DNA from: Coriobacteriia bacterium
GTDB taxonomy: Bacteria; Actinomycetota; Coriobacteriia; Coriobacteriales; Eggerthellaceae
Reading direction: 5' to 3'
Length of the DNA: 64,000 nt
Assembly (NCBI GenBank): GCA_030526515.1
Contig: JAUNCQ010000002.1
Span: forward strand, 1 to 64,000
Under the pieces are notes generated by a model, which had not been told where the DNA came from, searched no databases, and saw nothing but the letters and a program-made list of their open reading frames with translations. The position numbers were made by a program, and so were the translations under genes. This document shows positions 9,801 to 19,117 of the stretch, piece after piece (position 1 is the stretch's first letter; every line of letters starts with the position of its first letter).

Positions 9801-10605
9801 CCAGATGGACCCCCGCACCGGCAAGCTGACCTTCGCCGGCGCCGCCAACCTGAAGTGCCTGGGCGAAGATGCCCAGTACCTGGGCGGCACGCTGAGCTCC
9901 ATCAACGTCATCAACCACCGGCTGACCATCACCTGCGCGCCGGAAGGAGCCCTGTGCGCGCTGACCTGCCCCATGAGCTCCCTGAAGTCCGCCGGCGCGG
10001 CCTTCGTCAAGACCAAGGCCCCCTTCAGCACCGAAGCCGTCGAGACCGCCGCAGCCAGCGGCGCCCTGGCCCTGCTGGGCGTGGACACGGGCAAGGGATC
10101 CAACACCACCTGGCTGTTCAACCCCAAGTCCCGGACCTGGCGCAACATCGGCATCCCCCTGGGCGACACCAACCCCACCGGCATCTCCGGCACCGGCCTG
10201 CCCGGCAGCAGCTCCCTGTACGTGGTGGGCGAAGAGGACGCCACCGTCAACCAGCGCCTGGGCTTCATGCGCTGCCTGGACCTGACCGGCCTGGCACCGA
10301 CCTGCGACCCCTGGCGCCCCACGTCGGTGAAGGTCACGGCCGCCCGCGCCAAGAAGGGCGCCAAGACCCGCTCCGTCACGGTGCGCTGGACCAAGTCCTC
10401 TGATGCCACCGGCTACGAGGTCCGCTACAGCACCACCAAGGGCATGAAGTACTGCGCCACCGCCACCGTGAAGGCGGGCGCCAAGAAGACCGTCAAGGTG
10501 TCCAAGGCCGCGAAGCGCTGCTACGTGCAGGTCCGTTCCTACAAGAGCGTCAACGGCACCCGGCTGTACTCCAGCTGGACCACCAAGAAGAGCGTGAAGC
10601 TGTAG
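6883..10605 (+). CDS. Large secreted subtilisin-family serine protease
   Basis: The 1240-residue precursor starts at the ATG at 6883, 4 bases after GGGAGG, and has a signal peptide ending near QAHAAG. The S8 triad is visible: Asp244 in AIIDGGVDYNN, His295 in NGHGTHCAGI and Ser659 in GTSMATPMV, with oxyanion-region SMAAGNDGS about 85 residues after the His. Between that and the catalytic Ser is an inserted domain of about 190 residues that looks beta-rich. After the peptidase come an IPT-like segment, a kelch-like beta-propeller region (about 800-1130), and a C-terminal fibronectin-III-like domain rich in Lys. No LPxTG or lipobox is seen. It is a single gene between two terminators and likely degrades host or dietary protein outside the cell (inference). 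Confidence 0.9.
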   Translation: MAQHHPRLRAHHLSVALALALLTALLAFAPPLQAHAAGPQADGKSGNVILCVEQDRAADLAAELGVAPKQAALAEQDPDAATGTVSDASRGCTWEVLMDASAQAVQQAQEQTQAQDEDARPLDQGGYVIVAVTSDRSSTKALLAWAEQAPGVLFAERNQAIKTDLTAAADEGDPDDAENEDSYDSNAKCVPTDYFGTAPAFPTYRSSAWFLKNTGAYAQGKVGFDLNMPAGVTATEQQVVAIIDGGVDYNNPALQPYMVDLQAFPELLAQTGAQQYGFSGVDPEAPADCMDINGHGTHCAGIVAQAATQGGTAGDVRLMAVRAADPDGTFRSDSLIRCYEFVAKARQAGVNVVAANASYGGGGYATLVERVALNQMVDSGVALSMAAGNDGSCIDGTPTSQSGYSSINGVLMVGSSNPTGNPSSFSNYGKHDVDVFAPGSSVVSTVAQEAAEYVGFLAAQNTREGRTDAPQALIYESFEGSGSADPSLGGGLTFHYANKEEGENEQGEWAVTFPQNSTPLEYSDGAMLGNRSLVLRPDGPQEAIISDPLNPDLARQLEALDFTLKATENGTLVDWGFVDEEGTWYCCDDYERVGTEGEWITLGSPDRQLLLKDVQDAMAAGTHQFRLVIYLVYSPAPVHVDTVSLGRGVGGYSLKLGTSMATPMVTGLMAVAAAQHPEASPAELCAYVKGGAAPADNLKDLCTTSGNASMAGMANPVPVVNAASAGRGVLTLDGFFFGSARGTVKVGSATAQILSWQRVSGNAYAVKTTIPASAKSGFNELRVTSASGASGRAVKNLGNITRSRLYQDLPSLADSFNDGGYATLASTSKSVYSIMVGGEHDDDSTVIRVYRYSKAKGTWSKLASTTLSKAVGVSFKIVSRGMPRMLNAGGTLYAAVNLDAADDVDRDYQKTALFKLDSSTGKLVKCLTTTRELDNLFTYGSKIYLPTVEKVTSKKASLAALKGRAKGTYLAVRQMDPRTGKLTFAGAANLKCLGEDAQYLGGTLSSINVINHRLTITCAPEGALCALTCPMSSLKSAGAAFVKTKAPFSTEAVETAAASGALALLGVDTGKGSNTTWLFNPKSRTWRNIGIPLGDTNPTGISGTGLPGSSSLYVVGEEDATVNQRLGFMRCLDLTGLAPTCDPWRPTSVKVTAARAKKGAKTRSVTVRWTKSSDATGYEVRYSTTKGMKYCATATVKAGAKKTVKVSKAAKRCYVQVRSYKSVNGTRLYSSWTTKKSVKL

Positions 10606-10709
10606 GCTCCGCCCGGCGCACCCGGCCTGCCCAGGTCGCCCGATCTGCCTGGGCCACCTGACCTGGCTGGCCCGTCCGAGCCGCCCGGCTTTCCCAGCCC
10701 CACAGCAAG

Positions 10710-10745
10710 ACGGCCCCGCGAACCGAGCCTGGTTCGCGGGGCCGT
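10710..10745. terminator. Bidirectional terminator between the subtilase and lysozyme-like genes
   Basis: A perfect 15-bp GC-rich inverted repeat with a 6-base loop between convergent genes. It is followed at 10755-10776 by GGACGAAA and TTTCGCCC as an inverted pair. Confidence 0.8.
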
Positions 10746-10776
10746 TGTCATTCACAGGACGAAATTTCCTTTCGCC

Positions 10777-11760
10777 CTAGCCCTTCTTCTTTTCCTCACG
10801 GATCTGGTTCCAGGCCTGCTGGACCTTGCCGCCGTGGTTGGCGGTTCCCACGCCGCCGATCTGGTTCTGGTAGTCCTGGGACGCATCCAGGGACCAGGCG
10901 TCCACGCCGTTGTTGCGGCAATAGCGGAACCAACCCGCATGGCCGTAGTTGTATCCCTGGGCGATCAGGCCCACGTCGTCCTCGTCCTTGGGGTTGGGGT
11001 CGCGACCCATGTACTTGCGGAAGTCGCGGATGCATTCGCGCAACTCGAACACGCCGGCGTAGATGGAGGCCTCCGGGGTACCGGCCTCCACGCCCTTTTC
11101 GGGGACGCCGTTGTACAGGTACTTGGAGCCGTCGCCTTCGGCGGTCTGCATGATGTCGCCCTGGTCGTCAATGTAGATGTCGCCGTCGGACTCCACCTTG
11201 ATCATGGCAAGGACGGTGTCGGTCCAGCCGGCGTCCACGTCGAAGTAGTACTCGGCGTTCATGGCCACGGTGCGCCAGGTGTTGTCGCCGTAGAGCTCCT
11301 TATCATGGCCCTCACGCTTTTCCTTGGCCTTCTTGACCTTCTTCTTGAAGTCCTTGACCACCAGCACCACATTGTCCTTGGCCTTGCCGACCGCCTGGAC
11401 GGGGGTCAGGCCCTCAACGGACAGGCCCACCGCAATCACGACCACCACCAGCAGGGTGATAATGGCCTCGCGCTTGGAGGGCTTCAGGGCGCGGACGCCC
11501 TTGGGGCGGTCGTCAGCGCTGGGGCGGGGGTCCTGGGCGTGCTTCACCGTACGCTTTGCCTGGCGCTTGTGGACCCGGTCGGTGCGGCGCTGCCGGTACT
11601 CGGCGCGTCGCTGCTCGTAGCGGGCCTTGCGCTCCGCAGCGCGCTGGGCGCGGTCGGAGCCGTCCTGCGGGGAGGAAGGGGTGCCCGGAGCGGGAGTGCT
11701 GGCGGGGCTTTCGCCCTGATCCTTCTGATGCTGCGTATTGTTGTTGCCGTTTGCTTCCAC
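10777..11760 (-). CDS. Membrane-anchored lysozyme-like muramidase
   Basis: The 327-residue protein has a charged, disordered N-terminal tail (1-98, Arg/Gln-rich), one transmembrane helix (about 99-116), a Lys-rich stalk, and a C-terminal lysozyme-like domain of the CwlT/phage type: AMIKVESDGD with Glu190 as the probable catalytic acid, IMQTAEG, and LIAQGYNYGHAGW. It should cleave peptidoglycan glycan strands at the outer face of the membrane. It is convergent with the subtilase and divergent from the MATE gene. Confidence 0.82.
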   Translation of the reverse strand: MEANGNNNTQHQKDQGESPASTPAPGTPSSPQDGSDRAQRAAERKARYEQRRAEYRQRRTDRVHKRQAKRTVKHAQDPRPSADDRPKGVRALKPSKREAIITLLVVVVIAVGLSVEGLTPVQAVGKAKDNVVLVVKDFKKKVKKAKEKREGHDKELYGDNTWRTVAMNAEYYFDVDAGWTDTVLAMIKVESDGDIYIDDQGDIMQTAEGDGSKYLYNGVPEKGVEAGTPEASIYAGVFELRECIRDFRKYMGRDPNPKDEDDVGLIAQGYNYGHAGWFRYCRNNGVDAWSLDASQDYQNQIGGVGTANHGGKVQQAWNQIREEKKKG

Positions 11761-17831: not shown

Positions 17832-18632
17832 TTACTGACAGAAGGACCGGATGTAGGTATCGACCAGCTGGACATCTAGCGGGGTGGCCGCAGTTTCAAA
17901 GGTGGCGATCAGCCCCTTGCCCAGCACCAACCCCGATCGGGCATATGCCGAGACTTTGCGAAGCGCCCGCTCTCGATAGTCTGGATCGTCCATCAAGCCA
18001 AAATGCTCCCATATGAATTGCTGACGCGTACGCTTGTTGAGGACGGTGAAGTCGGGATGGACGGTGTCCAAGCCCTCGATATAGCAGGGACGCTCGTACA
18101 AATATCTGACACCTGCGCGGTGCAGCTTGTCGGCGATGATCACCTCGGACTTTGAGCGAACCAGGTCCCCCTTTTCGGTCTGATAGGCCCGGGTCGTTAT
18201 GGAGATCAGCGGCTCGCGTTGGTTTTCCCGCTCCCAAAGGAGAGCGTAATCATCATCAGGGAGCTCGAAGGGGACCACCATGGACTTGCGCTCCGGGCCC
18301 ATCTGGGCGTAGATGCGCTTGATGGCCTGGGCTCCAACGGATCCTCGTGATGACAGGCGGCGGATGCTCGCCAGGTCCCTCTCCGCCTGCTTCAACACGC
18401 GAAGATCGTAGTCTTTCTGGGCCAGCTGCAAAGCCAACGAACGCTGATCCTTGCGCAGGTAGCGCTCGCGGATCTTGCCATTAACGCGACCGAGGTATTG
18501 CTGGTAGCGTACGAGCTTTCCAGAGCAATTCACCCGCAGAGATCCCTCCGGGGCGTCAGCCAAGCGCTTCCGCGCCTGGTCCACCACCTCCTCAAGCCTG
18601 CGGACCTCCTTGTCCAGCTCCTCCTGCAGCAT
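17832..18632 (-). CDS. PD-(D/E)XK nuclease-like protein
   Basis: A 266-residue protein with a coiled-coil N-terminal half (about 1-110), a short linker, and a C-terminal domain whose motifs fit the PD-(D/E)XK nuclease core: SKSEVIIADKL with Glu163, HPDFTV with Asp194, and FIWEHFG with Glu209, then a helix with Lys and the strand LIATFET. The expected lysine two residues after the last acid is replaced by His-Phe, so activity is uncertain. The start has GAGG 8 bases upstream. The whole upstream region is occupied by the regular TTACC/GGTAA array (18656-19117), which begins 24 bases before the start codon, so the array is either its control region or its substrate (inference). Confidence 0.65.
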   Translation of the reverse strand: MLQEELDKEVRRLEEVVDQARKRLADAPEGSLRVNCSGKLVRYQQYLGRVNGKIRERYLRKDQRSLALQLAQKDYDLRVLKQAERDLASIRRLSSRGSVGAQAIKRIYAQMGPERKSMVVPFELPDDDYALLWERENQREPLISITTRAYQTEKGDLVRSKSEVIIADKLHRAGVRYLYERPCYIEGLDTVHPDFTVLNKRTRQQFIWEHFGLMDDPDYRERALRKVSAYARSGLVLGKGLIATFETAATPLDVQLVDTYIRSFCQ

Positions 18633-18655: not shown

Positions 18656-19117
18656 GCTTACCTGCTTGAATCAACTCGACCGATCTAGGTAAGCGCCCTT
18701 CCTTCTAGAACGACGCGCCTTTACCCATAATCAAATCGCCTCGCAAACTTAGGTAAGCAATCAGGAAGCCCCAGTCGCTTATCTTTACCCACGTTGGCCC
18801 GTTAGGCCAACGTGGGTAAGCGGAAAGCCACGAATCATCAGCCTGCTTTACCTATCTCAGAAACATCTGGGCTCATAGGTAAACCGGCTCTTACCTACGA
18901 CAAACAAAGACGGCTCACGTAGGTAAAACCAGACAGCTATCAGGACCAAAGCGCTTACCCAAGACGCACGAAGAGCACCAAAAAAGGTAAGCAGCAGGCG
19001 CCGCGCCCGCGAAACGACTTACCCAAAACAAGCAAGTGCCTCATCGTAGGCACGCCGTTCCTCGCAAGCCGCCCGGACAAGCTACCCAACGCCCAGCAAC
19101 AACCAGAAATAGGTAAC
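18656..19117. repeat. Regular array of alternating TTACC / GGTAA half-sites
   Basis: Half-sites start at 18658 (TTACC), 18688 (GGTAA), 18721, 18752, 18785, 18815, 18848, 18878, then 18891, 18922, 18955, 18986, 19019, a missing one near 19050, a TACC at 19083 and GGTAA at 19112. Orientation alternates and spacing is 30-33 bases, about three turns of B-DNA, except one 13-base step at 18878-18891. Each TTACC...GGTAA pair makes a 37-40-bp dyad and neighbouring dyads are mostly 24-25 bp apart, so the period is 63-65 bp. Arms are often longer than 5 bp (15 bp at 18785-18819; TTACCTACG at 18891). The sequence between half-sites is not conserved. No gene is credible here. Confidence 0.85.

Follow-up and report, generated by a model that had tools for sequence, protein, structure and literature searches.

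Positions 1 to 64,000 (forward strand) of contig JAUNCQ010000002.1 from a Coriobacteriia bacterium of the Eggerthellaceae (assembly GCA_030526515.1), hereafter the window, contain an array of short inverted half-sites next to a gene for a PD-(D/E)XK protein (Table 1). As read directly from the sequence, eight TTACC..GGTAA dyads occupy positions 18658-19116, each with a span of 35-36 base pairs (bp; TTACC-N25/26-GGTAA) and following each other in steps of 63, 64, 63, 43, 64, 64 and 63 bp, with the first half-site located 25 bp upstream of the start codon of the nuclease gene (18632). Exact 5-mers constitute 14 of the 16 half-sites, the two exceptions being CTACC and GGCAC. Over the whole window TTACC is not over-represented (34 occurrences vs. 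38 expected), with 14 of the 34 situated inside the 459 bp stretch of the array. The half-site array reported in an earlier note on this sequence is real, as its alternating-chain score is 21, whereas the same 600 bp, dinucleotide-shuffled 400 times, score 1.8 on average and 7 at most. Scanned for sigma-70 promoters, the array yielded no promoter-like site.

Table 1. Features of the array locus in window coordinates; each dyad starts with its left half-site.
Feature	Position	Strand	Remark
Array-linked PD-(D/E)XK protein gene, 266 residues	17832..18632	-	no Pfam or NCBIfam family
Three-stranded beta sheet, residues 31-59, between helices 2-25 and 61-109	18456..18542	-	predicted half-site recognition domain
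PD-(D/E)XK nuclease domain, residues 126-265	17838..18257	-	AlphaFold model and conserved residues
Dyad 1	18658..18692	.	TTACC-N25-GGTAA
Dyad 2	18721..18756	.	
Dyad 3	18785..18819	.	arms complementary over 15 bp by chance
Dyad 4	18848..18882	.	
Dyad 5	18891..18926	.	43 bp (about four turns) past dyad 4
Dyad 6	18955..18990	.	
Dyad 7	19019..19053	.	degenerate right half-site GGCAC
Dyad 8	19082..19116	.	left half-site CTACC

The AlphaFold model of the protein (79 relatives) is confident, with a mean pLDDT of 93.9, and predicts a helix, a three-stranded sheet and a long helix followed by the PD-(D/E)XK domain. This domain retains conserved acidic residues and an EXH motif, with E163, E209 and H210 invariant in the 79 relatives and D194 and K226 conserved in at least 90%, so that the protein may be catalytically active. 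Searches of Pfam and NCBIfam assigned no family and PHROGs gave weak matches, while the PADLOC profile PDC-S68 matches with an E value of 4e-28 over residues 149-263 only (profile positions 1099-1217). No relative by sequence was found among solved structures. Fold searches returned only weak nuclease matches (Bax1, MunI, DrdV) and nothing beyond a weak prefoldin-like coil for the N-terminal domain.

A profile search recovered 80 relatives from Lachnospiraceae, Fibrobacter, Treponema and Coriobacteriia, mostly in metagenome-assembled genomes of rumen and gut; the material thus consists of contigs of such genomes, with dyads counted as exact patterns and rough calls of open reading frames. Upon de novo detection of arrays, with a gene-linked search range of 600 bp upstream, 47 of the 76 relatives that could be assessed exceeded the threshold as compared to 2 of 506 control stretches, both of which are other repeats (one repetitive coding region and one unrelated tandem repeat). 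Downstream stretches pass in 6 of 81 cases, and in four relatives (L067, L068, L078, L084) the array is located downstream, not upstream, of the gene. Each gene has its own specific half-site. Among 60 genomes related to the host, the gene occurs in one other, G033 of the same family, in three copies about 50% identical, each with its own upstream array of a different half-site (TTACGCCCA or TTACGCCAAC) and the same 63-65 bp step. More widely, 61 of 168 Fibrobacterota genomes had a match, as did 91 of the 274 that belong to the Treponema family, in some cases to the nuclease domain only, and a genome can hold up to about 10 paralogs; at locus L182 (G163:C103:30000-48500) two nuclease paralogs are separated by about 14 kb, and their genome has eight matches. 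In phages and plasmids the search showed the family to be nearly absent, with one phage fragment covering 85% of a relative at 32% identity. As the matches there are mostly to other proteins and confined to their nuclease domain, shared for instance with AAA or RecD-like proteins of different architecture on plasmids, a phage or plasmid origin of the family was rejected.

The arrays are helically phased. Within a dyad the half-site distance is nearly constant per array, about 31 bp or three turns from start to start for the TACCTAT and TACGGAC types, and dyad centres in relatives lie 53, 63.5, 74, 84.5, 95 or 105.5 bp apart. The best period over 199 dyad distances is 10.5 bp (R = 0.91), phasing persists with one median per locus (R = 0.76, p about 2e-14), and 10.5 bp also gives R = 0.90 in 78 further distances, of which nearly all come from gene-free arrays. 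Several single arrays even mix steps that are one, two or three turns apart. Spacing by multiples of 10.5 bp is a signature of double-stranded DNA with the sites on one face of the helix, which explains the arrays where neither an RNA nor an accidental repeat does. Association with the PD-(D/E)XK family and helical spacing, on which the earlier note had made its reading depend, hold in relatives.

The two arms of a dyad show no covariation at the positions that adjoin the half-sites. In 54 arrays, inner positions match those of the dyad partner at 0.213 vs. 0.231 for the arm of another dyad, and outer positions at 0.240 vs. 0.222, by which RNA or cruciform hairpins were rejected. The compensating changes between arms that the earlier note had described are therefore not a general feature, although dyad 3 does have arms complementary over 15 bp. 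The array has no Rfam match at gathering score.

Which part of the protein reads the half-sites is suggested by natural variation. Half-site similarity between loci correlates best with sheet residues 31-46 (r = 0.48), also given the C-terminal part (partial Mantel r = 0.35; none of 2000 permutations as high). The strongest evidence on site recognition is the natural exchange of the array together with the N-terminal codons. The Fibrobacter loci L018 and L036 share 96% identity in their flanks and 94% in the gene from about codon 52 onward. Their arrays and codons 1-52, by contrast, show no relationship, with GGGGCATATAA giving way to GTACCTATAAA as the half-site. Similar exchanges of array and N-terminal block are seen between L044 and L055 and between L017 and L056, and similar hairpins on different protein bodies share a site, such as [KR]LR.I.NH...QYY with TTACATACTAA. 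Comparison of these sequences strongly suggests that the N-terminal helix/beta-sheet/helix domain binds the half-site. The reading in the earlier note is supported in part: the array would be a nucleoprotein site, most likely one that the encoded protein recognises, and may serve in partition or silencing or as a defence substrate. The gene-specific half-site, the swapping of N-terminal specificity along with the array and array mobility had escaped the earlier note.

Arrays also occur away from the gene. The window genome has one gene-free array (C53:3742-4126) and G033 several, while three Fibrobacter genomes hold 47, 34 and 28 exact TACCTAT-type dyads, gene-linked ones included, which in two of the three spread over at least 11 and at least 13 loci. 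Treponema and Lachnospiraceae genomes hold 4-25 TACGGAC-type dyads. Dyads of these types are mostly absent (0) from genomes whose gene has another half-site, and a reversed control pattern gave 0-1 dyads in the genomes counted and 3 for the short window pattern. The arrays are intergenic, as 24 of the 25 gene-free arrays fetched overlap no open reading frame, and are set between convergent (13), tandem (10) and divergent (2) genes. The earlier note had held that occurrence elsewhere without the gene would speak against its reading; such arrays indeed exist, but in the genomes examined they are conserved dispersed copies with the half-site of the resident gene.

Homology between copies of an array, which occur in either orientation, is as a rule restricted to the array and 0-75 bp beside it, which indicates that the array is the thing that moved; two Treponema copies in G065 are 94-97% identical, pointing to recent movement there. 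Two related Fibrobacter genomes keep several arrays at orthologous places, and in orthologous gene-free arrays the half-sites are 91% identical vs. 72% for the rest (p = 1e-14). In the genome pair G069 and G072, where exchange has made the gene alleles different, the other arrays that persist present a graded mixture of half-sites with mixed or intermediate forms (GGCATATAA, GGCCTATAA, GACCTATAA, TACCTATAA), which looks as if the sites follow the resident protein. Gene-free arrays with these mixed and intermediate half-sites, in two 96% identical Fibrobacter genomes with different gene alleles, are L139:4081-4410, L140:3680-4060 and L142:3530-3960.

Further observations concern growth and surroundings of arrays. 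The array at L132:3150-3923 is enlarged in that a unit of 168 bp (16 turns) has been duplicated in tandem, likely a way for arrays to grow in phase. Several arrays of G033 have as neighbour a repeat of about 120 bp, in part tandem and also dispersed over other intergenic places (L097:3786-4720 and 9925-10814; L098, L099, L102-L104); it may be a separate repeat family in which arrays tend to land. At L083:1200-1800 an interspersed repeat present in tandem copies (GTCATTGCGAGCACGAAG..GTGGCAATCC) is unrelated to the arrays.

Altogether, the array in the window is probably the gene-linked copy of a mobile family of binding-site arrays, with the recognising protein encoded by the adjacent gene. A model starting from what the sequences display, namely array, association, phasing, specificity tracking, block exchange, dispersal as units and half-site conservation, would add protein-DNA binding, autorepression, catalytic activity and the nuclease as agent of copying. 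The N-terminal domain would bind the half-site, two half-sites three turns apart would form a dyad, probably bound by a dimer, and dyads spaced by whole turns would place the bound proteins on one face of the DNA, where they could join cooperatively into a higher-order assembly with clustered PD-(D/E)XK domains. At its own promoter such an assembly most likely restrains the nuclease gene, and autorepression fits both the upstream location of the array and the fact that arrays are so rarely placed between divergent genes. Gene-free arrays would be non-autonomous copies which spread as units through intergenic DNA, probably helped by the nuclease, whose cutting may drive the copying, and spread and upkeep of these copies would depend on the protein. 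Tentatively, and with considerable doubt, this may be a new class of mobile genetic system in which a PD-(D/E)XK nuclease assembles on helically phased arrays of double-stranded DNA and causes them to be copied through the genome, while the array is inherited together with the recognition domain as a module of specificity that can be exchanged.

Several observations weigh against this proposal. A clear upstream array is lacking in 19 of 76 relatives, some of which have it downstream, and the window genome contains only one further array. A search for a clean empty site with target duplication, in G069 vs. G072 and G070 vs. G071, was without success, as arrays are conserved in place or the neighbourhood is rearranged and hence provide no target-site evidence; neither a transposase-like partner nor a terminal signature was seen. 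Recombination or gene conversion could also explain the homology of old copies in G033 and G070.

The same evidence bears on other explanations. In a conflict or defence setting, the nuclease would be held inactive on the chromosomal arrays as a DNA sink and would be set free or switched on once these are perturbed by damage or by foreign DNA, with half-site diversity as the outcome of an arms race. Paralogs with different half-sites in one genome, swapped specificity blocks, conserved catalytic residues and the relatedness of the nuclease domain to candidate defence proteins all fit, but no partner genes were seen, the array has no clear match to phage DNA and the family is nearly absent from phages and plasmids, so that this scenario appears unlikely. 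A role in chromosome organisation or transcription insulation, with the arrays as sites of a DNA-bridging or roadblock protein that uses the nuclease fold for binding only, would account for the prevalence of convergent intergenic positions, the upkeep at orthologous places and the phased sites. It is, however, rather improbable given the conservation of E163, D194, E209 and the EXH motif, the multiplication of arrays as mobile units and the strong differences in array presence and number among related genomes.

Even less can be said for an ordinary autoregulatory operator, whereby gene-free arrays would be decaying remnants of lost genes; the gene-linked array does stand upstream of the gene, but the half-sites of gene-free arrays are kept while the rest drifts, and one genome pair has mixed half-sites as if following a changed specificity, which makes it a very improbable explanation. 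Least credible of all is an array of RNA hairpins or guides of CRISPR or TIGR type, with loops or linkers as guides. A regular array does adjoin a nuclease gene and dyad 3 forms a 15 bp hairpin; nevertheless, the 54 arrays are without arm covariation, spacing is quantised by the DNA helix, and Rfam matches, Nop or Cas domains and guide-like phage matches are missing. Upon consideration of CRISPR-like spacers, only one phage match was obtained (26 bases, E 0.5), which is at chance level.

With respect to known systems, the regular repeat array adjoining a nuclease gene is shared with TIGR-Tas and CRISPR. TIGR-Tas arrays are, however, RNA-guide arrays (PMC12045711), whereas the present arrays consist of DNA dyads and the protein has no Nop domain (no Pfam match, and another fold in the AlphaFold model); in contrast to CRISPR, with its direct repeats and spacers derived from foreign DNA, the repeats are inverted dyads without guide evidence and no cas gene was seen among the neighbours. 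PDC-S68, a protein of about 1200 residues with a C-terminal nuclease domain, possesses a related domain, but only the last about 120 of about 1220 residues match and it has no known array. For a type II restriction-modification system, no methyltransferase was noticed adjacent to the gene within the window. TnsA is a PD-(D/E)XK nuclease. Tn7-like transposon ends are arrays of inverted TnsB sites (PMC8649781) and thus resemble the present system in combining inverted protein-binding sites with this nuclease fold; they differ in that here one array per gene replaces two ends, cargo is lacking and gene-free copies end at the array. No TnsB, TnsC or TnsD was recognised by eye among the open reading frames around gene-linked and gene-free arrays, while no profile search of all neighbours was run. 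A literature search, with most subscription papers outside its reach, found no description of such arrays, and the gene with its sites looks like a system that has not been described before.

Bacteria of the rumen and gut from several phyla have relatives of the gene with their own versions of the array. In Fibrobacter, Treponema and Lachnospiraceae, which are major rumen bacteria, many intergenic regions are marked by the system. The natural swaps already supply the material from which a DNA recognition code could be derived, with about 15 hairpin residues to be set against about 10 bp. The closest parallel is the REPtron, in which the nuclease TnpA_REP/RAYT has co-evolved with cognate REP, REPIN and BIME inverted repeats that are also dispersed and gene-free (PMC8266576, PMC3116915). 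Copying of arrays with the help of the nuclease would parallel the spread thought to be open to REPINs through their RAYT, and both systems have cognate inverted repeats beside a nuclease gene and dispersed in intergenic DNA, with co-evolution of nuclease and repeats in each. The REPtron nuclease is, though, a tyrosine transposase of the HUH type whose substrates are single-stranded hairpins that carry a GTAG motif (PMC8266576, PMC3116915), whereas the protein described here has a PD-(D/E)XK fold in the model and no Pfam family and is not an HUH/Y1 transposase. Its arrays are long-range phased double-stranded dyads without hairpin covariation, with half-sites that lack a constant GTAG and change from gene to gene, and with up to about 10 paralogs per genome. 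On this comparison, the best reading is that the system works most like REPtron/REPIN but would be built from unrelated parts; if true, it would represent a second, independent solution of a nuclease plus dispersed palindromic repeats, achieved via helical phasing of double-stranded DNA instead of hairpins.
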